Shown: positions 5,536 to 24,891 of the stretch, piece after piece
How positions within the stretch are numbered: position 1 is the first letter of the stretch
Layout of the letters: each line of letters opens with the position of its first letter
DNA from: Chondrosia reniformis
Taxonomy: Eukaryota; Porifera; Demospongiae; Chondrillida; Chondrillidae
NCBI GenBank assembly: GCA_947172415.1
Contig: OX359199.1
Coordinates: forward strand, 1-64,000
Length of the DNA: 64,000 nucleotides
Direction of reading: 5' to 3'
Made by a program: the position numbers and the translations under genes
Notes under the pieces: model-generated
Database searches by the model: none
Seen by the model: only the letters and a program-made list of their open reading frames with translations
What the model was told of the DNA's origin: nothing

Positions 5536-6443
5536 TGCAAATCAGCATAAAGTTCCCAAAAGGTAAAAATCAATTACTAAGCGATGACAGCGATGAATGG
5601 CACTTTAGGGGTTACTTTCGGCTAGTTTTTGTACCTTAATTTGTAGAGTAAGCTTAGAATATCTCAATTTGAATGCGACTTCCTGTTGCCATGGCGATTA
5701 ACGGTTGCACAATCAATTTTTAGAAGAAGAAGAGAAATTGAAGTGTTTTGCCGTTTTTGGAAATTTCAAGCTTCTGAGTTGATGAATTTCAACCCAACGT
5801 TCTGGAGAGATGGGTAGCTATATTATCTAAACTTTTAAGGATGAAAAATGCAATTCAACAGTTTAAAGGTGAGATATTGTGTTTTTCCGTAATATCGCAC
5901 CCTTTAATCTCGGAGAAATTTCTCTTGTTAATATAGTGGTTTCGGTAAACTAAATACATTTTCATTAATAGTTTTAAAATATCTAAAAATTTAAGGATGT
6001 TCATCGCGATATGTGTTTTCTTAACTAAGAAAACGGCTTTTAGATTTTTACTTATTTTTTTATTCTATAGTTGTAAACCTTTATGTAGACATCGGTATAG
6101 TTGTAAAATCTATAGTTTTAAACTGTGTGTGGCTTAAAGTAAGCTAATAGTCCTGAAATGTAAGTATAATCACTAGAGCATTTTAGGAAAAAACACCTAT
6201 TGCCTATTATATCTGTTATACATTTTCCTAAGCTGGCTGAGCCAGCAGCATGCCTAAAACATGATTCAATATTATTATTGAAGATAAGAAAAGGTGATTT
6301 AGTTTTTGGAGGGAAAAGGTAAAAGTAAAATACACTTACAAAGCATAAGTGAGCATGAATATGGCAACATTTTTATTTTTATAGTGCCCAAAGCTTTGTA
6401 TACAACAATGCTAAATTACCTAAGGGGCACAGGGCTATACCTG
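5536..6443. other. Non-coding spacer between satellite and transposon
   Basis: AT-rich unique sequence. I see no coding exon, RNA gene or clear repeat in it. Confidence 0.6.
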
Positions 6444-6478
6444 CACTGTTAAAAATTTGGAGTGAGGCTCACACCAAA
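6444..6478 (+). repeat. Left terminal inverted repeat
   Basis: 35-bp terminus starting CACTGTTAAAAAT and ending in TCACACCAAA. It pairs with 22112-22146 with four mismatches. It is preceded by TG. Confidence 0.82.
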
Positions 6479-6580
6479 TGACACTCACACCTATGGTGTG
6501 AATTGTCACACCATCCATTTGGTGTGAGGGTCACACTGTAATATGGTCAAGCTGTCAATTTAGTGTGAGGATCACACCCT
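6461..6580. repeat. Left subterminal palindromic repeats
   Basis: Four or five copies of a short dyad of the form GGTGTGA-nnn-TCACACC within 120 bp. Clustered subterminal repeats bind the transposase accessory protein in plant CACTA elements; a similar role here is inference. Confidence 0.65.
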
Positions 6581-7755
6581 TTTATCTTTATCCTTTATCA
6601 GTTTAAAGTACATGTGCATGTAGCTATATATGTTAAGCTTGTCCTATATATGGAGATTTTCAATGCCTAGATGTTAAGTTTGGTAGTTTTCCTATTCATG
6701 TGTGCACATGAAGGGCTTCAAAAATAGAACAGTAATCTAAGCTATAGCTAACTATATAGTTAATGGGTATAGCATTGACAATTAAACGGTTTTGTCATAC
6801 ACACTTATATGGCTTCTCTGTTTAAACAGTTGTGGTTTTGAAATATGTGATATTAATTGCATGAAAAATAAGAAATGATGCAATTGATTAATCAAAGGGT
6901 CAGAAGTTTGCTTACATCTGTAGACTTATATGGCTTCAGAGGCACAATTAGTGAAAAAATACAAGCCATGTGCACCAAAAATAGCATGTACAATATAGCA
7001 GGCCAATTCCCTCTCATATATGCATCATCTGAATTGATATGGCTTCAGAGACAAATCATTTTACATTTATGTTACCATGTTAAATTGGGGGAGGAGACAT
7101 TAAATGATTTTGCACATGTATATATGTGTAAGGAATTGTAGTTGTATTGGTCTGTACATGTATGGTGTTCCATATATGGTTCACTTTTGGGACCAGCACC
7201 AAAGAAATTGGCCATTAAAGGACATTTGGTGGTGCTCCTAGAAATGAAGCCATATGGAGAAAAATTTTAGGAAACCATACTTTGCATGTGAATGCTATAC
7301 TTATAAATCTGACTTATACAACTTTAAAGAATCCTCATACAAATGCAATCTTTCTAATAAGCTTTAACTATTAATGTAGTTCTTTGCAAGTTTATTTATT
7401 AGAAAATCTCTTGGATTTGAATAAGAGATGGCAGAGAATTACAAAACACTATCATTAGGATGCAATTCCCATGGGAGTATAGTGACATCAACCACATTGT
7501 TCCTTTGTCAAGGAAAGGTCTTGGTATGACCTATAAATTGTGATTGTATACAAAGTAGGTGGTGTTGTGGCAGGAGCTGATCATGAATACAATTATAAAG
7601 AGTCTGAAATGTGTCCCCTTATAATTCTTCATAGTCAATTCATAAGTGGGTAACACCAACAAGTGATTAACAATTGAACCTGTCTCTTATATCACTTATA
7701 TAATAGCTTAGGAGGCATTATAAATCATTTTCACTGCCTGCTCTGACTTCAGAGA
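6581..7755. other. Transposon left arm, no supported gene
   Basis: AT-rich. An 88-codon open frame at 6875-7141 (plus) has no recognisable domain, and part of it is a short internal duplication around the string ATATGGCTTCAGAG. I do not call it a gene. The sequence just before 7756 (CTGACTTCAG) could be a splice acceptor for an upstream non-coding exon of the phosphatase ORF. Confidence 0.4.
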
Positions 7756-8514
7756 ATGGATACCACAGTTGATCAAACAGACTTGATCCCTGTAGCAAAA
7801 GAATTATCCATTGAAGTGTTTGCAGATGCAAACAAGGGCAGCAGAAAACACATGGAAGATGTCATTGGTATAGAAATGGACTCAACAGTTAGGAGACAGG
7901 TGTTTGTCGGTATATTTGACGGGCATGGAGGGAAGGAAGCTGCAATGTACGCAAACAAGATGTTATGGAACAACATTAAGTCAAGAGAGGGCTTCAACAT
8001 GAACAATGGGACACCTGTGAAGGAAGCAATTATTGAAGGGTTCAAAATGACGCATGAGCAGATGTGGGGAGAGAGAGATCAATGGAAGAAATACAAGCAT
8101 GGAAGGCCCAGTACATCAGGGACCACAGCCTCAGTTGCCATTATTAGAAAGGATCGCATGTTTGTAGCCAATGTAGGTGACTCCACTGCTGTGCTTGCAG
8201 TGAGTGATAAGGTGAAGGTGTTTGATCATGGAGAAGGAATTAAGGCCATTCAACTGACCAGTGATCACAAGCCTGAATACCCAGATGAAAGGATTAGAAT
8301 TGAGAACATCGGCGGTAAGGTTTTAAGATCAACAGATGGAATCATGAGAGTTGCATGGAAAAGAGAAAAACATACAACAGGTTCTCCAGAATTTGATCAC
8401 ATTCCCTTTCTAAGTATTGCAAGAAGCTTAGGAGACTTCTGGAGCTACGCTGAGGATCACAATGACTATTTCGTGTCTCCTCTTCCTGATGTCTCGGAGT
8501 ACATAATTTCATAG
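7756..8514 (+). CDS. PPM1D/Wip1-like PP2C phosphatase, C-terminally truncated
   Basis: A single-exon 252-aa open frame matching the PP2C fold of the PPM1D (Wip1) group. Motifs in order: SRKHMEDV near residue 30, FDGHGG near 54 (metal-binding Asp), SGTTASVAII, VANVGDS, SDHKPEYPDERIRIE, a Wip1-like VAWKR segment, and SIARSLGDFWSY followed by SPLPD. The frame stops just where PPM1D proteins continue into the GSDGLW motif, so the last third of the fold, including the late metal-binding Asp residues, is missing; catalysis is therefore doubtful. PPM1D enzymes dephosphorylate stress kinases and p53-pathway proteins in animals. No intron is visible, compatible with a retrocopy or a captured fragment. 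A 30-bp minisatellite begins 12 bp after the stop and may mark the truncation point. It lies inside the transposon termini. A dominant-negative or pseudogene role are both open. Confidence 0.75.
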   Translation: MDTTVDQTDLIPVAKELSIEVFADANKGSRKHMEDVIGIEMDSTVRRQVFVGIFDGHGGKEAAMYANKMLWNNIKSREGFNMNNGTPVKEAIIEGFKMTHEQMWGERDQWKKYKHGRPSTSGTTASVAIIRKDRMFVANVGDSTAVLAVSDKVKVFDHGEGIKAIQLTSDHKPEYPDERIRIENIGGKVLRSTDGIMRVAWKREKHTTGSPEFDHIPFLSIARSLGDFWSYAEDHNDYFVSPLPDVSEYIIS

Positions 8515-8525
8515 GCGTAAGAAAA

Positions 8526-8925
8526 GTGAGTGTGGGGAGTGGTTGATCAAGTGAGTGTGGGGAGTGGTTGATCCAGTAAAGTGAGTGTGGGGAGTGGTTG
8601 ATCCAGTAAAGTGAGTGTGGGGAGTGGTTGATCCTGTAAAGTGAGTGTGGGGAGTGGTTGATCCAGTAAAGTGAGTGTGGGGAGTGGTTGATCCTGTAAA
8701 GTGAGTGTGGGGAGTGGTTGATCCAGTAAAGTGAGTGTGGGGAGTGGTTGATCAAGTAAAGTGAGTGTGGGGAGTGGTTGATCCTGTAAAGTGAGTGTGG
8801 GGAGTGGTTGTTCAAGTGAGTGTGGGGAGTGGTTGATCAAGTGAGTGTGGGGAGTGGTTGATCAAGTGAGTGTGGGGAGTGGTTGATCAAGTAAAGTGTG
8901 CATGGGGAGTGGTTGATCCAGTATT
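8526..8925. repeat. 30-bp minisatellite after the phosphatase ORF
   Basis: About 12 units of 30 bp (GTGAGTGTGGGGAGTGGTTG plus ATCCAGTAAA-type tail), with some 25-bp units lacking the tail. Every unit carries GTGAGT, a good splice-donor core. Minus-strand open frames with a repeated Asn-His-Ser-Pro-His-Ser motif are shadows of it. Confidence 0.93.
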
Positions 8926-9018
8926 GATTGATTGATCTATTGAAATCGTTCAATTAATGAAAATAATAATACAAATTAAAAACACAAACGAATATCATCA
9001 ATCATCTGTTCCATAAAG

Positions 9019-10569
9019 TTACAATTTTTTAATGGTGGCATAGCTACTGGGTATGTTGGTATCAGATTCTCTGCTTGCTATAATCACTACTGACATGTCT
9101 TCATAAGTGTCCCTCTTTGGTGGGGAGAGTGATGTCCTCATTTCAACATAGCCAATTTCTTCTCTTTTGACAATTTCCTTTCTCCTTAAGTCAGTATCAT
9201 CATCAATGTTAAAAGTTGCAGCCATACCAATGGAATGCTGGCTGTACTGTCTGGAAGGCAAGGTGTGAGGACTGCTGCCATGCTCAGCTTCAATTGGGTC
9301 ATCATCAGTTTCCAATCTTGTGCAATGGTCTTGTCTGTACTGATAGTTTGGAGAGTGATTCTTCCTCCTCAAGGAAGGGTGAGAGTGGAGATTAACCGGA
9401 GGCCCAACACAGCAGGGAGACTTGGGGAAGACTGAATCACGGAAGCCGATGGAACTAAGAGTACTGTTGCTACACTCTGAAAAGCTACCTGCATCAATTG
9501 ATGTGCTGTCTCTGCTGCTTCGAGCAGATGAAAGAGATATCTGTGATGTATGGCAAACATTCTCAATGACCATTCGACATCCTTTAAAAAGAAACCTATA
9601 AAGCAAAACAATAAAAAAGTCTAATTTACATTCCTCCTAGGACAGCAATCTCACTTACATGTGCAAGTTGTCCTGCAGACTATGAATGACCTCAGGAAAA
9701 GCATACATCCAAAGCAGTCCTGCCCCAAAGGTACACCTCCGCCCTGCCTCCAGAAACACCAGCCCTCCAATACTTCCACTACGCCTCAACTTGTCTCTGT
9801 CCCAAACAATGATCACATGACTGGTAACATTATGCGGAAAGAGTTTGATTTGCTCGGTTGCTGTGATTACAAATGCACAGCATGCCTGACTAATGCCAGC
9901 CTTGCTCCCAATACCTTCTTCCAACACATATATGCCCCAAGCTATCACTACACATGCAGTAGCAAGTTGTCAATTATCATTTAAATGTACACAGAGACTA
10001 GCAATAACATACCTCCTTGTGGATCATAATGCCTTGGATCCAGATTAGATTTGAATTCAGGGGGCAGCTTGTTCAGCAAAGACTTCGGCTCCACAGGGAT
10101 GGGGTACATGGGGATGGTAAGCAAGAGGCCGATATGGTTTGTCCACATGTGCCATGAGTAATCATCTTCTAATATCATCTCGACGGTGGAAGAATCATTT
10201 TTTTCAATCAAGATGCTGCGAGTAGATTGCGTGGGATTGATTCGCTTCATTGTGTCACAGTTTACTTGATGCATCGGAGGTCCGCCCTCGTTGAGACTTA
10301 AAGTCAAGCAAGCAGGTTCTATGCGTTCGTTTTGTGCCACAGTGGCACTCCAGGACTCCGTGAAATATCTCCTTTTCTATAAAGAATGTAAACGAAAGGA
10401 GTCATGCAACCAATTCTGGTATTTTACTGTATTTCTGTGCTGAAAGACGTATCAAAGAGTATGGTAGACTTCTCTCAGTATAGGGACTGTCATGTGTATA
10501 TCTTACCTTCCCGGCTCCAGAGGTACTCTGTCCTACGAGAGCCCAACCACTGTTTGTACGTCTGTACAT
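9019..10569 (-). CDS. DOK-like PH-PTB docking protein
   Basis: Four exons (10569-10507, 10376-10013, 9947-9659, 9595-9019) join in frame to a 430-aa protein; the start is the first ATG upstream of the PH-like segment. A divergent PH domain spans about residues 8-105 (ends near SWHMWTNHIGLLL). An IRS-type PTB domain spans about 135-240, with its signature LRRSGS, FLEAGRRC and the closing helix VIHSLQDNL. The roughly 190-aa tail is Ser-rich and unstructured and ends with two YxxM motifs (GYVEM near 388, TYEDM near 403) and SSYATI near 425, which fits an ITIM-like site. This PH-PTB-tyrosine tail order is that of DOK/IRS membrane adaptors, which dock SH2 proteins below receptor tyrosine kinases. 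YxxM is the PI3K p85 binding consensus. All junctions are GT-AG and no stop interrupts the frame. It lies inside the transposon termini, transcribed away from the transposase 5' region. It could be a captured host gene or host sequence between two separate elements. Confidence 0.78.
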
Positions 10570-11923
10570 AACCTTCGGCGAGTTGAGTTCTCGGCGGCCC
10601 AACTGTCACGTTGCAGATATCGATATATCTTCCCAAAGCAATCATAATATCGAGGTCTCTAATCAATTAAAAGGAGAGCTTAGGAGGTTACTACGAGACA
10701 AAACCAAGCTGTTTACGAAATTACGACATACGAAGCTTTTATTACGTCACGCTCATAGGAGGCTTGGTATTGCTCTATCAATTTTTAAATCCCGAACGGC
10801 CGCAGCCACAGATTGTAACTTGCGCAAAGATCTAACCGTTTGCTGTGGCGCAAAGGTCTCGGACAGCAGACAACATGGACCAACTCTAACTCGAAGTTTT
10901 GTAACGTTTCCCTCTCATTTGATTATTTGAAAGAAATCGTTTAAAGGTAAGTGTTTTTCTTCTAAATTCTTTGTACTGATAAATGAGCGTGTTTGTAAAA
11001 GAGTATTAATCTTTATCATGCAAAGCAGCTACCTATATAATGGGATGTTATGGGATTCTACAGTTACGCAACCGTGCCCTGCCCTCTGCTCGTTGCGCAA
11101 ACATTGCGAGCACGTATCCTAGGTAACGAGTTCTTTTTAGAGAATGGCTACCGACTGAACGAGTGGACGGTTCAGGAATTGGTCGTTTGTGTCAGAGTAC
11201 ATACGGTTCTAGAGGCAAATAAAGACAACAAAGGTACACTGCATGTGTTACACACTATTTAAAGCCATTTCTCAGTTTTCGTTCTCGCGTAAGGTAAAAC
11301 GGGGTAACTTAGAACAATATTTTGTTTTCCGTACCTTGTTTTCAGACAAATTTTGCTGGATGTCCGATAAGCTGTTCATATATGAGGTTCACCTTGCCTA
11401 GTCACAGTACAGTAGACAAACCTAGATTTCGCGTGCATTTCAAGGCGCACGGGGAATGAAACGGCGGCCAAGTAACAAAATGGCGGATGGGGTAACTTGG
11501 AACGCTGTTTTTAAAGATGTGTCGCTTCCCCCATGAGCCGCCAATAACCTGAATGGAAGGTTCGGCATGCAGGTAGCAATTATAACTTGCTATGTAATTA
11601 CTCGTGTGTATTTTGGCGTTGTGTGAAGTCAAGCAAAACAGATTATTTTATTACTTTAAATCGTCGTAAAAGTTGCACCGAGCTTCTCAGGATGCCGAAC
11701 GAGGAACAGTGAGTTGTAGGCAACTCAGTGACCATCGTAGAAGGAGGTTCATTGCAAGATATGGCATTATCACTGGTTTCGCGCCTGTTTCAGAATTTGA
11801 TTTCGTTGTATTATCGCTAGCGTGTCACACTTAGCTATTAACTTAACAATGGTGAACACCAATGAATCTAAAGATCATGAATAATAAAATAAGATGGTGA
11901 GAAAGTGAATACAACATAAAAGG
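10570..11923 (+). other. Divergent region with weak plus-strand exons of unknown gene
   Basis: Upstream of the DOK-like start. A plus-strand open frame at about 10634-10930 is basic and helix-like (GELRRLLRDK, TKLRHTKLLLRHAHRR) and is followed by a good donor (TTTAAAG then GTAAGT at 10948). A second open stretch, 11050-11220, looks codon-balanced and also ends before GTACAC. They do not join into a recognisable protein and neither has a convincing ATG. An AAAATGGCGG string (YY1-like) occurs near 11478. The rest up to 11923 shows nothing I can name. Confidence 0.25.
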
Positions 11924-12476
11924 TCAGATGTTAACTTCAGCAATTTCCTCAAGTTTGACCAAGTAGCCCTGCAGGTAGTAGAGAATCAATACGTACATGC
12001 AGTTAAGCTACGCATTCGTGCATACACTGTCACTTGCAATACAGACAAAATACCACTCACAAAGCCAGCCTCCTCAGCCCTGGATATTTCACCAGGAAAC
12101 TTAATGTGGAGGATTCTTTCCACCTGCCACGGGAATATTATGTAGGCACTTTTGCTGATTGCCAGCTCTTCCTTCTCCGGCATCGTGTTCTGTATGTAGA
12201 AAGTAAATTAATAACTTATGTTCTTACATGCAGGCCATGTGATTGCAAACTTACAAAAAGGGCAGTCTCAAAATTGTCCTCGAAGGACTCCCGGCCAGGC
12301 AGTGGCTCCTGTAGGAGCTCCAGGAACTTCGGTGGACACAACAGACTATCAAAGAACAACTATGGTAAGTCACGTATGCAGTTGTACATATTAGAAACTG
12401 TTGGTCCTCACCCATGTTCTTGAAATGATTGTTCGAGGGCAACAATGGCCTCTTCAAATGCACTTAGTACTGGCAT
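11924..12476 (-). CDS. Orphan 109-aa protein, four exons
   Basis: Exons 12476-12412, 12345-12255, 12189-12061 and 11968-11924 join with consistent phases (2, 0, 0) and canonical GT-AG sites to a 109-aa frame ending in a stop. The peptide is acidic and helical at the start (VLSAFEEAIVALEQSF), then has PPKFLELLQEPLPG, an aromatic segment (SAYIIFPWQVERI) and a Lys/Glu-rich end. I recognise no family. It could be the 3' part of a longer gene whose 5' exons I did not find, because the first exon lacks a strong 5' context. It sits between the DOK-like gene and the 3' end of the transposase, on the same strand as both. Exon continuity over three introns argues that it is or was a real gene. Confidence 0.5.
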
Positions 12477-12718
12477 CCTCTCAGAAATGACTGCTTTCTT
12501 TTTTGTGTAGAGTACTGTACAGTTTGGGTTGTATGTGCTAATTGCAAGGGCACAATGGTATTACCCTGGTGGTAGTGTGTAGATTAGTACTGTCTGTCTG
12601 GAGTGGTTAGCACAATTCTGTAGCAGCCATACCAGGTTAATTGAGTGACACCCAGATATACCTATATTATGTAGTCAAGCCACTGGTATGTCAGAATTTG
12701 GAATAATTGTCTTTAAGG

Positions 12719-12746
12719 TGCGTGTGTGTGTGTGTGTGTGTGTGCG
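12719..12746. repeat. GT microsatellite
   Basis: Alternating GT/GC-GT run followed by looser TG-rich sequence to about 12850. Further TG-rich runs occur at 13097-13122 and 13404-13434. No gene is supported between 12480 and 13565. Confidence 0.85.
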
Positions 12747-13567
12747 TGTGTGCCGTAAGTGTTTGTGCTAATGTACGTATGTATGTGAGTGGATGATGTG
12801 GGTATGGGGGTGTGGGGGTACATGTGTACATGTGTGGGTGCAAGTAGGTGTGTCACTGTAGTGTGCGTGTGTAGGAGTCTGTGGACTATATATCTGAAAT
12901 GCGTCATGCATGTCTAACAAAAGGCCGTGAACTAGGTGTGCATGTGTCAGTGTGGGGCTCGCTCAGGCTTGCCCCAATCACTATTGTACGTATGTTGGAG
13001 TGGGGTACGTTGCACTGAAGAGGCCCAATGAGGCCGAAACAGTGGCTTACCGGCTTACTGTCTGCAACTCCCTACTATCTACATACAGCTTGAATGGTGT
13101 GTGTGTGCATGCGTGTGTGTGTGTAATTTGGCATCACAGGGTGTTACAAATGAATATAGCCTAGCTAAAGCCTATACTTTTATATCAGTATCATCAGGGA
13201 AACATGCGATTACACATACGTTGTTGGTACATGTGTACATATTATTATACGATATATTGTACCAATTTTGCCCCATTCTTGCCAGGTTCAGTCAGCAGTG
13301 TGGTGGACACCAAGGGAGCTGGCTTTGCATGGTGATATGGGCAGTATCTACAATCAAATCAAGTTAATCTGTGTAACTTCTGTGTAGCACTTTGTTTTCA
13401 TGGTATGTGTGTGTGTGCGTGCATGTGTGTGTGTCTATATTAATATTATATATATATATATGTTGTCGACTGATCATTCATGCTCATGCCTGCAGACCAC
13501 ATGGAGATATGTACATGTGTACATGGTGTCATTCTGGGCAAGCATAATACAGAAATTTGGAGCAATG

Positions 13568-16500
13568 TCACAAAAAATGTTGTTTCAGACATACAAACTG
13601 TGACGTGGCTAGTGAAGGTGAAAAACAAGTGTGTGTGTTGTGTGGATGAAAGGAAAGTAGTCTGTCAGGTGTTGTAACTATGGTACTGCCTGTGCCTACT
13701 ATTTCATATGCATTGTAGTGTGGGTGAAATTCTAATAATATTAACTTTGACACAAACAAACATTGATCTTCATCAATGAAGATCTTGGTGATCCTCCCTA
13801 AGACAGGTAGATCGTCTGTCTTGCCGAGAACCACAATGTCCTCCGTCGTGTATTTCGTCCCAGATACTTGCACTTGCTTGATTCTGATAATAAAACAATG
13901 ATGATATACAAAATTTAAATAACAGTACATTGTTGTGATATTTAGCGTGTGTGCACATTTCAGTTTACTCACAAGCTCAGTGTGTTCTTGGCTGTTAGCC
14001 CAAGTCCAGCACCTTGCAGCAGCTCGCCCTCTGGCACCTTCCCCACTTCAACTGATGTTACTGCACATGCATGATGTAAAGTACGTACATAGGAGTAGAT
14101 ATTCTTGGATATAATCAAATGAGCAGAACTATTGGTGTCTACATATTGCACAATATAGAGATATATACATAATATCGAGTGTGACGAATGTGATAGGAGT
14201 ATTGCATATATTCATACGTACCTTTCCCAAGTTGCACATCTTTGTGCAGGAACTTTGCGGGACAGATCATCCTATAGCATTGCAAATGCTGGTGCCGCTT
14301 TGCAAGTGTCAGCGGTAAGTTGATATAGTTGCCTATAATCCTAGACAAATTCTTAAAGAAGGAGTGTTTAGCCTCGTACCTCATGCACCAATAATTCACC
14401 AGAGGCCCATACCTACATACGGATATAACAACATTTTTAAAGGAGGAAGTGGTTATGTACAATGTGCACATACATACCTAACAAAGTGGGCTTCTTAATT
14501 AAGTACTCACCTGGCTGTCCATGTAGGCAAATGCAACAAATAGTGCATTTTTGGTGTCAAGGTTCTTGAAGGGTACAGTTCCACCCAGGTGGAAAGAAAA
14601 GCCTCAATGAGGATTGCCATGTGTTCTGTGGTGGCCATTGAAACCTTCTGGGCGAACAGAAACTCCATGATATGGAGGAGCATGAGGAAGTGTTCCCAGT
14701 GAGCACTATCCTCAGGGACGACGTCTCCCACTAGGAGTGGGAGGAAACGCCCTAGGCACCACATTTCTGTAGCTACAATGTATAATGGAACATATGTATA
14801 AATAACATTAGCTATAGGACAGACTTGTACATAATAAATGCAATGGAGGTAAACTTGTCACAGCTATATATGTAAGTGTACCTGATTGCTTTAAATCCCC
14901 CGATTCCAAGTGGGTGGCGGCAATGTTCCCTCTTGGCCTGTTTGAACCCTCAATTGGTCCAAATTGGTAGGACTCAATCCGCCGGTTCAACTCAGTGACA
15001 CTTATTAGCGAGCTGTCAATGAGATGACTAAGCAGGTGCTTCACACACATTGGCAGCACTCCTTCTAGGACATCATGCATAATGTCTGGTAGTAGCCCCT
15101 CCGTTGTGTGGAAATACCTAAGGGTGTTTAGTATCGGATCCCTCACTACACCATAGGTAGTAGCCATGTGGTCATGGAGGGGACCTCCGAGGCTGGCACA
15201 ATGTCTCTGATGTGTGTCCCTGGTTCGTGGCTGAAACTCTCGCTCGTGAAACTACACATAAACCAATAATAATACAGTGTATGTTGTATCATGTACAGAT
15301 GCAAGTGTATGTACACACAAGTAGATACACATCCAAACACAAAACACACCTTCTGTTGCATCTCGGCATCTGTAGCCATGCAATATCGGCATTTTCTGAA
15401 GGCAGAGTTGAGTGCCTTGTAGCCTCCAATGAGCTGAGATGCAAGGTTGTCGGCAGACACTACAGTGACGGTTCCCCTAAATTTTCTTTCAGCTCCATCA
15501 AACTGGAAGTTGTGTCCCTCATCCTAAAAAGATTAAAATTAATCATCACATGCAGATTTAATAACCATGCACGATCAAACAGGCATGCCAATCTTATATC
15601 TCTATATATGTACCTCCAGCTTCTTCACAGCTTCCACAAAGGGCTCTAGAACAGCATCTATACCATGGGCCTGGATGACTGACACTTTCACAATGCTGAG
15701 GAGGCAGATGCTGTCAAGGGTGGAACGGAGTTTGGGGTCCAGGTTTCCCAATGTGTAATAGAATAGCCCTGTATATAGGACATATATGTTTACGTAAACA
15801 TTGATAATGGGTAATAATGTATAGATAGCATTACATACATACGTACCAAGCTTGTGCACTTTAGTATTAGATCCCAGTGGGTTGACAGCTTCAACGTCGT
15901 CATAATACAACTGAATTTGCAGAGCTGATTTGTCTTCCCGGAAAAGTGAGTTGTCCTTGTATGCCTGACTGTCACAGAAGTCCCCCATCACTCCCTCCGT
16001 GACAGAACAATGAGAGTTGCAGATCTACACACACAAGGTAATTAATTGGTATATTGTTTTCACATAATCAAAGTCAGTTTAGAAATTATGCAACCTACCT
16101 GGTCTCGAACAACCTCCATGTTCATGAGGTTCTGAAGGGACTCTATGATGGGGATGTCATAACACATGTCCTTTTCCTCCTTCATTGTTCCACCTTTTTG
16201 CACCATACGTGTTCCAACGACACGTCCAACAGGCTCCTGTAAATAGATGTGGATAAACATCACAATTGATAATTGACGTCATCATCCAATTAACATTCCT
16301 TCGCTTACATGCAAATGGTCTATTGCACATCTTCCATAGGCTGGACTGATATGCATGTGTATACAAACATAGTCTGTTTGTATAGTTGAATACTTACCAA
16401 GTAGCTGAAGTTTTCTTTGTAGTACTGCACTTGTTTATATTCTGTCATCAACCCTTCAAAGGGGTTATGGGAGACACCAGCTGAAGCTAATCTGCTCAGC

Positions 16501-17189
16501 ACCGTCTTTGTGTCTGCTTCTGGTAACCCGATGTCCTGTAAGGCTTCTCTAATTTCTCCTTTTACGTTGTGTATCACATCTTCACACAGGGATGATGCAC
16601 TCTGCACAACTTGGTTCAACGTTTTCTGTGTGAGACGTCCTTCCTCCCTTGTCTTGAGGATGAAAAGAGCAGCTGTTCTTTTGGGATCAGGCTCTTGGAT
16701 GGACACTGCACTCTCATCAGCATGTGTGCACGTGTAATCCAATTCAGCAGGCTCATGCTCGTAGCTATGGATGAAAGACACATCATGCAGATGTTAATGG
16801 TTTAATAATAATTGGTCCCTATACTGTAACACAGAAGCTGATGCATTGCAATATAGTGCACTATAGCGAATTATGCAATCCTATTACGCAGGTCCAAAGG
16901 GATATTCCCGTTTGTATTGCAGTAGAACGTATGCATGCATCACTTACTTTTCCGTTGGGGGAGTATTCTCGTCGCAAAATGGGAGAGGATCGCCAAGTAG
17001 ATGGCGGTGCTTCCTGTAGACATGTGATCTGAAGGATCCATAGACATTATACCTCATCGAACACCCTTCCACTCCACATTTCACTTGAAAATTGGGCTCG
17101 TACTGGTGAACCTCGCCGATGTGTCTTATCACTCCGCGCAAACTTGGCGCAGAATAATGAGTACAGAGCGAACACTTCCACTTAGACAT
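13568..17189 (-). CDS. EnSpm/CACTA-like transposase with N-terminal C2H2 fingers
   Basis: Eleven exons (17189-16948, 16764-16398, 16236-16099, 16024-15847, 15768-15614, 15523-15350, 15251-14882, 14766-14511, 14412-14222, 14060-13973, 13883-13568) join in frame to 824 aa. Residues 1-70 hold two C2H2 zinc fingers (CSLC..HIGEVH and C..C..HVYRKH). The core shows family marks of animal EnSpm-like transposases: YYDDVEAVNPLGS (probable first catalytic Asp), TVVSADNLASQLIGG, KCRYCMA, EGLLPDIMHDVLEGVLP, MWCLGRFLPLLVGD, HWEHFLMLLHIMEF, LTPKMHYLLHLP, YGPLVNYWCMRYEAKH. A small beta-rich C-terminal domain (VSGTKYTTEDIVVL) closes it. No stop, frameshift or missing block is visible, so it may be recently active. 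It is transcribed away from the partner ORF across a shared 1.7-kb interval. Catalytic residue assignment rests on similarity to Transposase_21-type motifs and is inference. Confidence 0.85.
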
Positions 17190-17390
17190 CGTCTTACATA
17201 GCGGCCAAACGTCTAGAAGAGAGATTACACCTACTGTGGAATGCTCATTAGCAAACTTTGGGTGTTACCTTATTCCTAGTCTACACTACTGTAGTCGGTC
17301 GCCGCTTAATCGAGCGCTAGACTCCAGGCAGTACTTCAGCTCCAGCAGTGAGCAAGCGGTTGCATTTGTGCTTCGTTCAGAACGTTAACC

Positions 17391-17620
17391 ATGGCGACTG
17401 CTTCTACGGGTATTAGAATTTTTGTCGTTCACGACCTCCAACGTGGTGGTCGACAGTACATGGCGGCCAGGAGGCTGCAGTCTACGCAAAGACCCACCTG
17501 TGGGCCAATATCCAGGCCGAGCCTGGATTCGGTGCGGAGAACAGCAAGGAGACAAAGGAGGCAATTATCCAGGGCTTCCTTCGCACTCAGCGGGACATGC
17601 GGACTGTGAGAGGTGAATAA
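17391..17620 (+). pseudogene. PPM1D-like fragment with internal deletion
   Basis: The opening frame reads from ATG through TGIRIFVVHDLQRGGRQYM, which aligns with the start of the phosphatase ORF at 7756 (LSIEVFADANKGSRKHM). The sequence then jumps, in another frame, to HGGQEAAVYAK, LWANIQAEPGF and KEAIIQGFLRTQRDM, the segment just after the DGHGG motif. The stretch between, including the motif-2 Asp, is gone. The junction is CATGG, a string present at both corresponding places in the 7756 copy, so a microhomology deletion explains both the loss and the frame change. A possible donor (GAGAG then GTGAAT) ends the similarity. It lies in the intergenic control region between the two divergent transposon genes. 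Confidence 0.7.
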
Positions 17621-17924
17621 ACCAACCAAATGAGAGCCAACTGACACACACAAGAGACCTGGAGACCACTAGAGTGCTCACACACAACTTATACACACTT
17701 ATGCTACTTTCAGAACTGCGTTAATGCAATACTACTTGACTATGGATTGATTACTTATGTGAACTTATTTAATTATATTGACTCTTCAGAATCTGTGTAT
17801 ATCATCCCATGTGCATGTGCATGTGTGTTTTGTTTTGTTTTGTGTCTTGTTTTGTTGACTGTATACAATGTCAGGTCCCCCATTCATACCAGCCTTGTGC
17901 TGAAGGGGTAACCTTAATAATAAT

Positions 17925-18715
17925 ACTATACACAAGAGACCTGGACTCCACTAGAGCGCGCTCACACAACTTATACACAAGAGACCAGGACTCCATTAGA
18001 GCACTCACACACAACTTATACACAAGAGACCAGCACTCAACTAAGCGCTCACACACAAGAGACCAGCACTCCACTAAGATCGCTCACACACAACTTACAC
18101 AAGAGACCTGGATTCCACTAGAGCGCTCACACACAACTTACACAAGAGACCAGCACTCTACTAGAGCGCTATCACACAACTTACACAAGAGACCAGCACT
18201 CCACTAGATTGCTCACACACAAGAGACCAGGACTCCACTAGATCGCTCACACACAACCTACGCAAGAGACGAGCACTCCACTAGAACGCTCACACACGAG
18301 ACCTGGACTCCACTAGAGCGCTCACACACACAACTTACACAAGAGACCAGCACTCTACTAAAGCGCTGACACACAACTTACACAAGAGACCAGCACTCCA
18401 CTAGAGCGCTCACACACAAGAGACCAGCACTCCACTAGAGCGCTCACACACAAGAGACCAGCACTCTACTAGAGCGCTCACACACAAGAGACCAGCACTC
18501 TACTAGAGCGCTCACACACAAGAGACCAGCACTCCACTAGAGCGCTCACACACAAGAGACCAGCACTCTACTAGAGCGTTCACACACACTAAAGACCAGC
18601 ACTCCACTAGAGCGCTCACACACAAGAGACCAGCACTCTACTAGAGCGTTCACACACACTAAAGACCAGCACTCCACTAGAGCGCTCACCACAAGAGACC
18701 AGCACTCTACTAGGC
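17925..18715. repeat. 34-bp minisatellite
   Basis: About 22 units of a 34-bp core (CACACAAGAGACCAGCACTC plus CACTAGAGCGCT), with longer variants that insert CAACTTA. It separates the PPM1D-like fragment from the promoter of the partner ORF. Open frames in it are periodic shadows. Confidence 0.92.
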
Positions 18716-18822
18716 ACAACAGCCTCAATACTGCTTACTGGGAAGAGCCTTTGGCGAAGAAGACGCCCATGGTCTTTGGAACATGTACTTAATGATATTC
18801 ATTCTTCCATACATCACGCACT

Positions 18823-18870
18823 GATCTCATTGGCCAAGGGACAGCCAATGAGATCTTTAATGTGACGTCA
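18823..18870 (+). promoter_or_regulatory. Probable promoter of transposon partner ORF: inverted CCAAT boxes and CRE
   Basis: A perfect 12-bp inverted repeat (GATCTCATTGGC at 18823-18834 and GCCAATGAGATC at 18844-18855) places two CCAAT boxes head to head. The palindromic cAMP-response element TGACGTCA follows at 18863-18870, 60 bp upstream of the ATG. Confidence 0.6.
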
Positions 18871-18930
18871 CGTGCACTGGTGGGAAATTTGAAGGTGAGA
18901 TATCTTGAACCTGTGATATTTTGAGAAGAG

Positions 18931-21802
18931 ATGGAGAGAAAAGTGTTGTTGTCGTTTAGTGGAGAAAAGCGGGTCGCAGTACTACCGCACGAACCTACTG
19001 GAGACTTAACTGACATCGTACAACAAGCGAAGACATTGTTCGTCGATCTAGCGGGCAAGGACACAGGAGACATATGTGTTCGAAGCTTCGATGAAGACTT
19101 CGAAGAGTGGGTTGATCTCGATCCTTCATTTGTGGCCAAGTCTAAAGAGAAGGTCCAAGTGGCGCTTCGCCAAATAAAGGTAAGTAACATTCTACGCACT
19201 CTCGATAGGCAATAGCTGTCTCACTGTGCTAGACAGTATGCACCCAGCTAGGAAATAGCTAAGTGCCCCACCCCCCTTTAGATAGTCCAAGATATTATCA
19301 TACATCTACAGCGTCATTCATGCATATCAGCTCAGCGCGTATATATACATACATTGATACATGTAGCCCATGCATCTTATTTCATGTCATGGCTATTTTA
19401 TGGCTGTTTTTTGGACATAATTTTCTGAGCTGACTGCCTGACCCATAGCTACCCACATTGTTTTCTGTAATACATTTTCTATACTATCTAGGAACCACTT
19501 GGTATTGCCACCAATGTGCCTTTGCAACCAGAGAGTGAACCTGAAGCAGAGGTAGGTTTTGCAAAATATTGTAATTAAACACAATAATGTAGAATTATAC
19601 AGGTATCCATAAGTTTAATTGAAAGCTAGCTCCCTATGTTACTATTGCATTATTCACGTTCACTTTGTTTCCCATGGGAATTGTAGCTCTACTCAAGATT
19701 GTCATCCAATAATTAAAAATTAATTATTATTTGAAGAAACCCAAAGCATATTGTAGAATATTCATGTTCTTCTTATCTGTTTATTGCTGGCCCTATATAT
19801 TCTGCAGGACATGCCACAAGCCAGTAGCTCCAGTGTCTGCCCAGCAGCCCCACTGTCTTCTGCTCCCAGGAAAAGACCCTTGGAAAAATCCCTCCCGGTT
19901 CCCTTTGTGTTACCGACTAACTTTCCCCCAGTAGTAGCTGCAGGGATACAAAACAAGCACCTCACCGGAAAGGCAATGGTGAAATTCATCACTGCTATTG
20001 CCAATTCCATTTTTCACCACAAGTCCTACCCGACGAGGGAAGAAAGAGAACATGTCGCGCGGCAATGTGTGAAAGCCTTCCCGTTCTTGGAATCGAACTG
20101 TGGGTCAGGACATGTAAGTGGAATTTTTAGTAAGTAAATTGCTACAGCATGCTATACTGGTCTTAAATATTACTCCTAGTACAGTACGTGTATGTGGTAT
20201 ATAATATATATGTCAGTTAAGTATACGTACACATTGTATTGAGTAAGCAACATGTGTACATTGATAACTATATTTGCATCTTTATCACTTTATACAGGGG
20301 TACCTTGTGATATGTCTCGAAGAACGAATGAAGTACCTGAGACGTCCTCATAAGTGCAGTCGGGTGGCTGAAGATGGAGCTAGTGCTCCTCCACCAAAGC
20401 GACCAGTCAAACCAGTCATGCCACAAGTGGCCCCAGTAGGAGTGAATGCTGTCGGGGAAGACAATGCCAGCCATGCCAGGAACACAAAGATGCTCCAGGC
20501 ACTCTACAAGCAGGTACGTATAGTGACATGTGTGTTATATCAAATTAAATCAATGTACACGTGTTGCTTACGTAATACCCAGTGATTGATCTTTGATATA
20601 TCAAAGGTATATGCAGTTATAGACATAAAATTCTTTCATCTAGCTCCTTATGCATGTACACACTATTGTATTATATGCAGTGCAAGCCCCATTACTTTAT
20701 TATATGTAGAGCATTCTACTGTCTCACTGAAATTACTGTACTCTGTCACTTTATTCACAGCTTCATCCAGATCCAGTGAGTGTGCAGGACCTGATGTCTA
20801 GAACTTTCTCTGCCAGGAGGACTATGCTGCAGGATCCTGGCCAGGTATTCAGCATCCATGGCTTTCTCGAGATGTATCCATTCTTGACCAAGTATGATCA
20901 AGTATGTTCAAAAAACTGTATAATTTTAATTATATTCACACAACAGTTGGGTGTATGCACGTGTGCATATGTGTAATGTATATATACAACTTTACAAATG
21001 CAGATCCAGCAAGAGTTTGATCGTGTGGTTGCTGAACAGTATGCGACCTTCCTTTCAGTTAAACTGCGTTGGCTAGAGTTACAGCCGCAGTTTCTAGAAC
21101 TGGCTACATCTGAACAAAACAGGCAGCTAATTTCAATGTTGGACAGACCTACAGATGAAATGGATGAAGGTTAGCCAATTTCTGTATACAGTTTTACAGT
21201 GCTAGTTTCTATGCAAGTACATACATGCAAAAGCCTTTTTAATTTTGATTCTTCCAATCCACATCCAAAAATACAGGAACTCTGAGTGTGTACTGCCTGG
21301 TGTTGATTGCGTACATGTTGCCGGACCCACATTCCAAACCTGATCACACAAAAGTGGTCAAGATTGTGCCAGTGAGTTGTTTGCTAATTATTTTACATAT
21401 ATATGGGGATGGTGTAGCTGTGTGCATGAGCATACATGCAACGGTATATATATAATGCATGCTTTATCTGATGTACTTCTCCTTAACATATATACTACGT
21501 AGGTGAATGCAGACCTGAAAGCAGAAGCTGCCAGCATGATGACTAAACAGTGCTGTCTTCTGGCCACTGGCTCAGTGGCTGCCATCAATGAGGTTTACCT
21601 TGTTGTGGAAAGACAAATTCTGTGTGCAGTTGCAAAGGGGACACAAGCAGTGGCAGCGTTATTTGCCTCCTTTTTTGTCTTCAACATCAGCTACCCAATT
21701 GGCACTACGTCCCTTTTTCAGTTCCTAGAAACTGTGTTTTTGAAAGCCAAAGTACCAAAGAAGCCAAGGCTTCAAAAGTTTATTGCCAGACTTGCTCTTT
21801 AA
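18931..21802 (+). CDS. Transposon partner protein (second ORF of EnSpm-like element)
   Basis: Eight exons (18931-19179, 19492-19551, 19808-20113, 20298-20513, 20761-20901, 21004-21169, 21277-21371, 21503-21802) join in frame to 510 aa. The N-terminus (residues 1-83) looks PB1-like: VLLSFSGEKRVAVLPHE then RSFDEDFEEWVDLDP. A Pro/Ser linker follows. The middle has the helical block TGKAMVKFITAIANSIF, YPTREEREHVARQCVKAFPFLE and GYLVICLEERMKYLRR, a pattern seen in accessory ORFs of animal EnSpm-like elements and in some SAM-domain-annotated fish proteins. The later part (LMSRTFSARRTML, IHGFLEMYPFLTKYDQ) is conserved in the same group. No catalytic motif is evident. A DNA-binding or regulatory partner role, like TnpA in plant CACTA elements, is inference. 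The frame is intact and divergent from the transposase. Confidence 0.75.
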
Positions 21803-22008
21803 TATTATTTTTGTATCATTCACTGTACTGCTTTTACTATGCTGTATCTATCCTTCACATGTGTTTCTTATGATGTGTGTCAGTCTACACTAAACTGCAA
21901 TTCAGCTAGAGGCATGCATGCATGGAAAAGTCAATGCATGTGTATGTAAACTGCATGAGGTTGTGAGAATTTGAACTGGAACCTGGATTTGTGGGATTAT
22001 GTTCTGGT

Positions 22009-22135
22009 GAGGTTCACACTTTACAAAGAGTGATTCTCACACCATTATGCTAGGAGTGACTATCACACTGAAATCTGGTGTGAGCCCTGTAGCAATCAAT
22101 TCACACCAATTTTTGGTGTGATCGTCACCCCACAT
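22009..22135. repeat. Right subterminal palindromic repeats
   Basis: Several copies of the same TGTGA/TCACA dyads as at the left end, spaced 15-35 bp, just inside the right TIR. Confidence 0.62.
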
Positions 22136-22146
22136 TTTTAACAGTG
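22112..22146 (-). repeat. Right terminal inverted repeat
   Basis: Ends in ATTTTTAACAGTG, the reverse complement of the left terminus, and is followed by TG. Confidence 0.82.
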
Positions 22147-22164
22147 TGGACACGTATAAACCAT

Positions 22165-22254
22165 CGCCACTTAAGGCTACCAGGCCGTCCGCCCAGGTAC
22201 ATAGCCCGACTGCCTGGGCGCATTAAGCCCTCGCCACTTAAGGCTACCAGGCCG
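22165..22254. repeat. Short direct repeat with hairpin, right flank of transposon
   Basis: A 23-bp string (starting CGCCACTTAAGGCTACC) occurs at 22165-22187 and 22232-22254, separated by a segment with the inverted arms CGCCCAGG and CCTGGGCG. The origin is unknown; it may be the end of another element. Confidence 0.6.
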
Positions 22255-22481: not shown

Positions 22482-24891
22482 TTATGCTGTAATTTGTGAT
22501 GTTATTACCTTTGAATCTGCTTCTGAGCCAGATTTCATCCCTTCTAGGTATGCTCTATGATAGTCACGCACCTTCCTGAAGAACTGCCTGATTAAGTCTG
22601 TATTAACCGCATCCAGGGCATTTGGGACAGTAACCCTCAATCCTGCTAATGTGTAATTACAGTTAGCTCTTGCATACTGCTTTGCTTTTGCCCAACACCT
22701 CTCAATGGGGTTTAATTCAGGATGGAACTGCAAGCAAAAGAGGTGAGGAAGTTAACATATTTGATATATTGAGCATATACATAGACATTGAATGGAGTTA
22801 TGCATGCAATACTCACCTTAGGACAGAATAAACATCTGTGATTTTTTGCCTTTAGGTATGCTTCTACGCTACTGATTTCATTTCTAAAATCTTCAAACTG
22901 CTCCATTCTCTTTACCATATCTTTTTTTGTCATTCCCAGCGTATCCACTCCTCTTTCTCTCAGAACTAGATCTAAGCCTTTGGGAGTTCCATCCTGTAGT
23001 GTCATTTTTTGAGGGGCTCCATTGGGCAGTCTACCATCACGCATTTTTGGCTGACTCCCTCCTGGTTTTACGTTCATCCTGGCAGCTACTAATGCATTCT
23101 TTTCATAGGCTTGGTGACCACTGCTGTGATCAAAAATCCACACCAGATTGTACTTGTCCCTCGGATATTTGAATTCTGCTACCCTAACTGCTTTCCTAAT
23201 GTTGGCCATGAACTTGTCATTGTCCCAGTAGCCATCCCGTTGATGTTCAATTATTTCCCTAGCCTCTTTAGGATAGAAGGCATATAGTCGTCTAGCTGCT
23301 GAATGTTCTTCATCTGTTAATCGGAGATAGCCTGAAAATTCCTCAATAAAATCGCTCACCATAATTCCTTGCCCTTTTCCTTTAGGACGAACTGCTCCAC
23401 TGCCACTGGGATCCACCCATACTCTGGAATGGGCATCATTTGCATTAAATGTGGACTCGTCGTGATATATGAAGACTACATGCTTGGACTTGGAAGTATC
23501 GCCATTATTCCAGGAAGGTATAGCATCTTGACATGTGGGCGGAGGCAAGTGGGAAGCTTCCAAAACCCTAATTTTATTTAAATATAGCATCCTATATTGT
23601 AATACATCATCACGGTCATGCCCATCAGCGTAGCCCTGCTTGTATTGCCTATTTGTGAATCCTAACCTCTTCATGTATCTTAATGCCGTCATTTCTGAAA
23701 TTGTATTTTGAAAAGAACTGGGTAGCTGTAGTGTCGTTAAATAATCATTAGGGTTAACCCTAACCCTAACCAGATTTGGAATTTTTTTGCTGTAAGATTG
23801 AATTTCCTGTCGTGCACCTTTTCCCTGAGCCATTTGACTGACTTTCTTGTAATATCCTCCTGATCAAGTAGTGTGTTACGTCTATACTTCCCTCGTGTAC
23901 TCCTTGAAAATTCACCTTTGTTTTTGCTGAAATCACCAACCCATTTAGAAATTGTTTTCCTGGAGTATCCTAGGGCTTGACCTGTTGTTTCTGCTGCTGT
24001 GGTCTGGTCTGTCTGGTGTGTTTGATGTTCATGACGATACAAGAAAATTCCAAGCATCTTTCGTTCCAAAGTAGGCATCTTTTTGATCCAGTCCTCAATA
24101 GAAACTGTCCAATCATCCACAGAGAAATTATCTTCAGTAGCATTGTCTTCAGTAGTACTGTCAGTTCCTTGTTCTTCGTCACTGTCCTATAAATTATAGC
24201 ATATGTATCATAATCATGTTTATATATGCTAAATATAATCTTTCTAAAGCAGTCTTTATGTGTTTAGCTATGTTTTAAATTGTATGCATGGCATTAAAGT
24301 CCTTTAGAGGATTGTGCTTGTATACATTTAAAGTATAATAAAGCTATTCATAGAGGCAGATCCACGAACAAGAATGAACAAGAAGTCAAGAAGAACAAGA
24401 ACAAGAATGCCAAATGCTTATATGGATCATTTCTATGCATTCATGCATGTATGTGTATAATTTATTTATTGGTGAAATTAATTATTTTAAATATTTGTAC
24501 TAACGTCAAACTCTGATTCCAAATCTGAAGTAGTTAATGGATCATGTGGTAGCAGTAAGCTATCTTCAACTCCCTCTGAAGTAGTTGTCACTGTGCTATT
24601 CTCCTGTGCAGATCTAGAAGTATTTTCTTCACTATTTCCGCTTGCCCTTGATTGAGACGTACTAGTTCCCAATTGTGACTGCCAACGTTTTGAAGACATT
24701 TTAAAGGCTCTATCTGAACGAAATCGTTTTCCACGCCAGGGTTTTTGAGATGAAAGACCAACTAAAACATCTGGCGAGGAATTAGACTCTTTGCCTCCTT
24801 GATTTGAAAGAATATCGGGTGAATTCGTCGAGATCGAAGCTTCGATTTGACGATCGCCGACATTTCTTCGTTCCTCGGGGGTATTAGACAT
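22482..24891 (-). pseudogene. IS630/Tc1-mariner-like DDE transposase, frameshifted
   Basis: Exon 1 is 24891-24505 (129 codons, Ser-rich, low complexity), followed by a phase-0 intron. Exon 2 is 24186-22817 and exon 3 is 22727-22482. Exon 2 starts with a helix-turn-helix-like stretch (ALGYSRKTISKWVGDF) and then a second DNA-binding block. The DDE fold follows with FIYHDESTFNAND (first Asp), LVWIFDHSSGHQ (second Asp) and, at the exon 3 start, FHPELNPIERCW (Glu). This arrangement is typical of IS630/Tc1-mariner relatives carrying an HDES motif, also seen in fungi. The frame breaks once, at 23750-23766, where a 17-bp telomere-like insertion shifts it; everything else reads through. The copy is therefore probably inactive in its present form. 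The element's own TIRs were not identified. Confidence 0.72.
23750..23766. repeat. 17-bp telomere-like insertion in transposase frame
   Basis: AGGGTTAACCCTAACCC: a head-to-head pair of telomere-type units. Removing exactly these 17 bases restores a continuous transposase frame through IWL-NDYLTT. Confidence 0.7.

Follow-up and report, generated by a model that had tools for sequence, protein, structure and literature searches.

The window analysed here is a stretch of 64,000 nucleotides from the very start of contig C11 in the Chondrosia reniformis assembly, and it is free of N; the assembly searched comprises 117,379,552 bases in 15 contigs. Between positions 6444 and 22146 it holds the exons of an EnSpm/CACTA transposase and of its partner protein, a truncated phosphatase reading frame, a DOK-like gene and several smaller pieces, all enclosed by terminal inverted repeats (TIRs). 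Two transposon families, A and B, are concerned. In order of position, the features are:

6421-6443, plus strand: opening 23 bp of the target repeat, on the left side of the insertion, the last bases being the duplicated TG
6444-6478, plus strand: left TIR of family B type, 34/35 against the family B left TIR of C12 and 29/35 against a family A left TIR
6444-11055, plus strand: left arm derived from family B, with the cargo, in place of 65-107 bp in other family A copies
7756-8514, plus strand: PPM1D-like PP2C ORF, 252 aa, C-terminally truncated, the intron of the C5 gene being absent at 8075/8076
8523-8923, plus strand: 30-bp minisatellite, 14 copies, adjoining the truncated end of the phosphatase
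9019-9595, minus strand: DOK-like exon 4 and stop, end of the open frame
9659-9947, minus strand: DOK-like exon 3, with a weak IRS-type PTB match
10013-10376, minus strand: DOK-like exon 2, open frame, splice sites as in the C7 (chr7) gene
10507-10569, minus strand: DOK-like exon 1, open frame, splice sites as in the C7 gene
10819-11041, plus strand: fragment from a third locus, related to C2:7043573-7044031 (72-79%)
11056-22146, plus strand: family A EnSpm body, the right 11.1 kb of the element, aligned to other A copies
13571-17264, minus strand: transposase exon region, with CRYC, HYLLH and RYEAKH motifs
17459-17614, plus strand: older PPM1D-like fragment, ~50% amino acid identity, between the transposase and the partner gene of family A
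18925-21802, plus strand: partner-protein exon region, exon ORFs compared with A copies
22112-22146, minus strand: right TIR of family A type, 35/35 against a family A copy on C2
22147-22300, plus strand: continuation of the target repeat, opening with the second TG

The 35-bp termini lie exactly where the initial annotation had placed them, at 6444 and 22146. They are identical at 31/35 positions and form the longest inverted-repeat pair within 6400-22200; as background, at least 31 matches were reached by 34 of 1,987,439 random 35-mer pairs from the window. The ends read CAC..GTG, and the TG reported earlier is present on both sides of 6444-22146. According to an excerpt of PMC12730594, CAC..GTG termini and target-site duplications of 2-5 bp characterise EnSpm/CACTA (CMC) elements.

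When the left flank was joined to the right flank via a single TG, the product aligned as the end of another dispersed repeat. The 37-base junction of this empty site was found uninterrupted at 159 places elsewhere (71 + 88, with at most 2 mismatches), against 0 for a reversed control, and the 154 bases to the right of the element match at 95-100% in 40 places, the window included (40/266 candidates scored). We conclude that 6444-22146 is a single inserted unit of 15.7 kb, located 23 bp inside a target repeat, with duplication of TG. The proposal of one EnSpm-like unit enclosing host-like genes, with empty sites that lack the whole interval and carry one TG, is thereby supported. The alternative that it left standing, in which PPM1D-like and DOK-like host genes lie between two independent transposon ends, fails, barring a mis-join in the flank match, since the flanks rejoin over one TG into a repeat found uninterrupted so many times. 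The left and right termini do come from two families, and both gene types are also neighbours at two loci on C4; against this, the phosphatase is attached to a family B TIR elsewhere in the genome, on C12, and the C4 locus, where the phosphatases carry a stop and the DOK-like genes are broken, itself holds transposon pieces (a portion of B left arm and a relative of the partner gene). We give this alternative practically no credence. The target repeat is dispersed, its end being present more than 150 times.

A search with the right-end sequence returned 8 matches, one of them the window itself. Three further copies (C2:20790, C4:4107079 and C2:5785568) match at 98-99%, and a last 4 at 76-94% over 35-133 bases. 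In the C4 copy and in the copy starting at C2:5778138, a 107-bp left end leads directly to the position matching 11056; in the copy at C2:20790-30754, a 65-bp left end leads to the position matching 11077. Positions 6537-11055, which include the cargo, are unmatched in all three, within the stretches compared, so that the earlier expectation of finding it at the same internal positions in other transposase-bearing copies was not borne out. It had also been held that left termini just 3' of the transposase in other copies, at about 12.5-13.5 kb here, would speak against one unit; the left ends observed come close to that situation, yet the single unit holds. Aligned blocks are 97-100% identical between these copies and the window, a minisatellite excepted. 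All three show internal deletions or rearrangements, and the fullest body is that in the window. Family A is a young EnSpm family. As for target sites, the copy at C2:20790-30754 is flanked by AA on both sides, the copy at C4:4105496-4107267 has AT on one side and TA on the other, with no 2-bp match, and the copy at C2:5778138/5785568 is rearranged, which makes its flanks uninformative on target-site duplication.

The transposase motifs, C(2)C, H(3)H and E, lie within the open frames of the exon ORFs, on the minus strand: CRYC at 15391-15380, HYLLH at 14545-14531 and RYEAKH at 14381-14364 (unspliced ORFs). The first transposase exon appears C2H2-like by eye, and Pfam zf-C2H2_aberr was hit at E=0.0087, below the cut-off. 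Run on single transposase and partner exons, Pfam gave no match for 5 of 6, and one sub-threshold homeodomain. The 11 transposase and partner exon ORFs compared are open, and they are 95-100% identical wherever another A copy retains the exon, with the exception of 19784-20137, a stretch only 76% identical in one C2 copy (C2a). A 34-bp minisatellite at 18020-18713, inside family A, may vary in length among copies, as a C2 copy gave many overlapping alignments there.

The left end tells of another family. Among 18 matches to it, 8 were long (the window, C6, C9 twice, C13, C4, C12 and C1), which places B-type left ends at 7 places beyond the window, over 126-157 bases. A further match, of 48 bases, lies on C7, and the others represent left ends of family A or match in the TIR alone. 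The B left TIR of C12 is identical (35/35) to the B right TIR at C2:3128548, and B right ends are also found at C1:3695758, on C6 at 3240169, 3254469, 3266019 and, in part, once more, and at C12:2314540 and C4:3020093. Of the 3 B right-end loci searched, 2 encode a relative of the last exon of the partner gene (44-53% amino acid identity), and the third gave no match. Given the identical left and right TIRs and this partner-exon relative, family B appears to be an EnSpm family sister to A; the A and B TIRs have their first 13 bases in common and agree at 29/35 positions overall. Comparison of left-end and right-end matches yielded no complete family B element with both ends paired. On C6, the B right end at 3266019 faces a B left end at 3362117, 96 kb apart. 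Also on C6, three full-length and one partial B right-end matches lie in the same orientation within 27 kb (3239404-3266296), suggesting local duplication.

Judged from these alignments, the window element is a hybrid with a B-type left end and an A-type right end, and not a standard copy. The junction region 10700-11160 is spanned in the window only, assembly-wide, and there is no second hybrid copy. The C2-like fragment is separated from family A by 14 bp of unplaced sequence (11042-11055), at a breakpoint of the sort where Pack-TIRs may show microhomology. A standard full-length copy with ancestral cargo was considered and rejected, as the other A copies are devoid of cargo and the junction is unique to the window.

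The hybrid could also have formed in place. Under this order of events, a plain family A element inserted first with its own left end, and the arm was then swapped by gene conversion or gap repair on a B template with similar TIRs, so that the hybrid never moved. The 13 shared bases and 29/35 agreement of the TIRs, as well as the uniqueness of the hybrid in the assembly, are in keeping with such a swap, and an excerpt of PMC8277862 ascribes the single-copy Pack-TIRs of animals mostly to gap filling without transposition. It demands, however, that a 4.6-kb replacement stop precisely at the element's outer end, and a single insertion is simpler; we consider it possible, if on the unlikely side. 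With no second hybrid copy at hand, the joint movement of both arms is deduced from one duplication and its empty site.

Concerning the cargo, the Wip1-like phosphatase ORF noticed at first is indeed present at 7756-8514, with a Pfam PP2C match at E=1.7e-36, and it is truncated: the match covers profile positions 3-198 of 255 in the window versus 3-248 in the C5 gene, the stop falling within the PP2C domain, just before the minisatellite. The likely host gene, C5:6017147-6018089, contains an intron of 175 nt. The window and C4 lack it precisely at the splice junction, and C12 lacks it at the same place, which suggests that the phosphatase cargo is a processed copy. Compared with one of the C4 copies (C4b), the window phosphatase shows 20 nonsynonymous and 5 synonymous changes and a dS of 0.033, with a neutral dN/dS of 1.06 that was obtained from C4b alone, the second C4 copy being equally close. 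Against the C5 gene, dS is 0.51 and dN/dS 0.25. The C12 locus has a B TIR, flanked by other sequence, that continues without interruption into a broken copy of this phosphatase, which suggests transport of the phosphatase within family B; the right end of that C12 copy was not found. The second phosphatase fragment of the initial annotation was recovered at 17459-17614, in a part of family A missing from the other copies examined. It stops near the codon of the intron position, at a donor-like GTGAAT, a weak hint that the C5 intron may be ancestral. Another short PPM1D-like 5' fragment, at C5:2798462-2798876, has ~300 bp upstream in common with the transposon (7445-7846), unmatched in the C5 gene.

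The DOK-like gene (10569-9019, minus strand) has four open exons encoding 430 aa, and keeps three introns at the positions found in the gene at C7:8144948-8146638. The frame announced as intact is thus complete; its name is less firm. The Pfam IRS profile was matched at E=0.003 in the window and 0.009 in C7, below the curated cut-off and with exon 3 segments only, and the whole proteins from both loci had no Pfam match at E 0.01. PDB matches to FRS3, DOK5, DOK1 and IRS-1 came at E 0.45-1.6, ranked among unrelated AF-9 matches, and an AlphaFold single-sequence model of exon 3 alone was unusable (pLDDT 51). No PH domain was matched by Pfam in the N-terminal 108 aa of the C7 protein, a search in which HMMER filters may drop weak matches. 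The DOK/IRS identity is therefore a weak one, drawn solely from a sub-threshold IRS-type PTB match.

Between the window and C7 genes, the 430 codons give dS 0.80, dN 0.14 and dN/dS 0.17. Changes were then assigned to branches, as simple tallies of unique changes over the 330 codons, out of 430, alignable in the window, C7 and C4b. The window branch has 73 nonsynonymous and 59 synonymous changes (ratio 0.36; neutrality rejected, p=1.6e-7), the C7 branch 15 and 36 (ratio 0.12), so that constraint is looser on the window branch than on that of C7 (p=0.002). The C4b branch, broken and with a stop, has 63 and 35 (ratio 0.52); it too departs from neutrality (p=0.006), and no difference was seen between it and the window branch (p=0.18). 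As this broken branch is also non-neutral, the low window ratio reflects past rather than present constraint. In simulated neutral drift, the frame remained open in 1% of 2000 runs at 0.10 per site and in 19% at 0.035, so that a short neutral phase is allowed. The DOK-like gene would then be a predicted gene with long past constraint and, its frame having stayed open, one that may still be expressed. A reading in which selection keeps it as an expressed passenger within a mobile EnSpm lineage while sister copies decayed, with a possible arrival from another sponge along with the transposon, seems to us doubtful; if true, a DNA transposon would be shuttling a working signalling gene within an animal genome.

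Other DOK-like matches are fragments, or broken over the matched part (C4 twice, C1:4.86, C1:5.64, C1:2.79 and C2:6.59 Mb), and a piece of DOK-like intron lies at C5:1.65 Mb. The closest copy by dS is that of C1:5.64 Mb (0.20 over 51 codons, dN/dS 1.09), located ~0.9 kb inside a B-type left end, in opposite orientation. The C2:6.59 Mb fragment, with just 48-69 codons and synonymous distances of 1.03-1.96, gave no firm root for the tree of these sequences.

The left arm relates to three other loci, of which two are resident genes. It also contains an ORF of 115 aa with a TTG start (10583-10930), apparently the 109-aa orphan seen earlier. As in Pack-TIRs, non-transposon sequence lies between TIRs and parental-type genes exist, on C5 and C7, which at dS 0.51 and 0.80 are relatives and not the direct source; no intact gene nearer to the cargo was found in this assembly. 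These distances, together with the low dN, point to other functional genes as sources, and we infer that the cargo lineages were functional genes for most of the time since their split from the residents. They may derive from lost paralogues, from long-lived functional cargo or from another sponge; if horizontal transfer took place, the missing phosphatase intron may just be a trait of the donor. Recent capture from the resident C5 and C7 genes, the cargo being now inert, would agree with the neutral dN/dS of the window and C4b phosphatases and with the truncated ORF. However, an always-neutral lineage would have accumulated far higher dN than is implied by ratios of 0.25 (C5) and 0.17 (C7) at such synonymous distances. 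Direct recent capture from these two genes was rejected on synonymous divergence and low dN/dS, and we hold this reading to be very improbable.

At C4:4240000-4292000, two copies ~46 kb apart and 99% identical where compared each contain a PPM1D-like and a DOK-like gene, both broken; close to the first there is an apparent satellite array with units of ~250 bp. The family B left-arm sequence found there is a second piece, and the relative of the partner gene, at 39% amino acid identity, is at C4:4248087-4248293. One joint capture of the gene pair, common to C4 and the window, was rejected, the phosphatase dS being 0.033 and the DOK-like dS 0.81; this inequality means that the pairings were reshuffled or formed separately. 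Beyond the DOK-like 3' end, the window and C4 share ~40 bp at 90%, unaligned to C7 and partly recurring at C1:4.86 Mb, so that a common origin of their 3' side is possible.

Taken together, the locus is probably a cut-and-paste EnSpm/CACTA hybrid of Chondrosia reniformis, in which a family B left arm with host-like cargo and a family A body would have moved as a unit. Family B would have taken up host sequence when repair switched templates, the phosphatase by way of a spliced or intron-lacking copy and the DOK-like gene in its genomic form. An exchange at a later stage would have put the B left arm in place of the short left end of A, and the family A transposase would have mobilised the hybrid via one B-type and one A-type terminus.

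EnSpm/CACTA elements resemble this one in their CAC..GTG ends, short target-site duplication and CMC-type transposase motifs. They usually have a second protein and subterminal repeats, and the window element was likened to them on both; it departs from them in having ends from two families and host-like genes inside. In plants, the CACTA element Tgm-Express reportedly has CACTA-type ends around host gene fragments, and Pack-TYPE elements, described as non-autonomous, are likewise said to hold host gene fragments inside such ends; those cases differ from ours in being from plants and in carrying fragments. By analogy, the closest precedent is that of the animal Pack-TIR elements. An excerpt of Tan et al. 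2021 (PMC8277862) reports 370 of them (208 hAT and 115 TcMariner, TE consensus median 374 bp), describes the capture of host sequence by animal TIR transposons as mainly a matter of hAT and Tc/mariner, and calls it fragmentary. As here, a TIR transposon surrounds duplicated host sequence, and nearly all are single copy in that text; the present element differs from most of them in superfamily, being an EnSpm, and it further differs in its own transposase exons, its hybrid ends and a complete multi-exon cargo frame. Excerpts of two other papers mention EnSpm with extra ORFs, namely enlarged families in the red alga Chondrus (PMC6431247) and fungal EnSpm carrying TET/JBP (PMC12730594), where the extra genes are family-wide, in contrast to a single-copy hybrid in an animal. 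The former, a review, calls full-length gene acquisition by Helitrons, as in Pack-MULEs, exceptionally rare. Among the open-licence papers listed on EnSpm capture in animals and sponges, none named a sponge case. We conclude that the observation is real. One assembly displays several steps, with a cargo-bearing donor family, a transposase-bearing recipient, and the hybrid, with its open multi-exon gene, in a target with an empty-site record. The mobility of a hybrid-ended EnSpm and the expression of transposon-borne signalling genes become testable.

Finally, to the right of the insertion, two minus-strand ORFs were noticed at 22712-23833, for which Pfam gave no credible match, and 23737-24120; by eye, they look like bits of another transposase-type protein.
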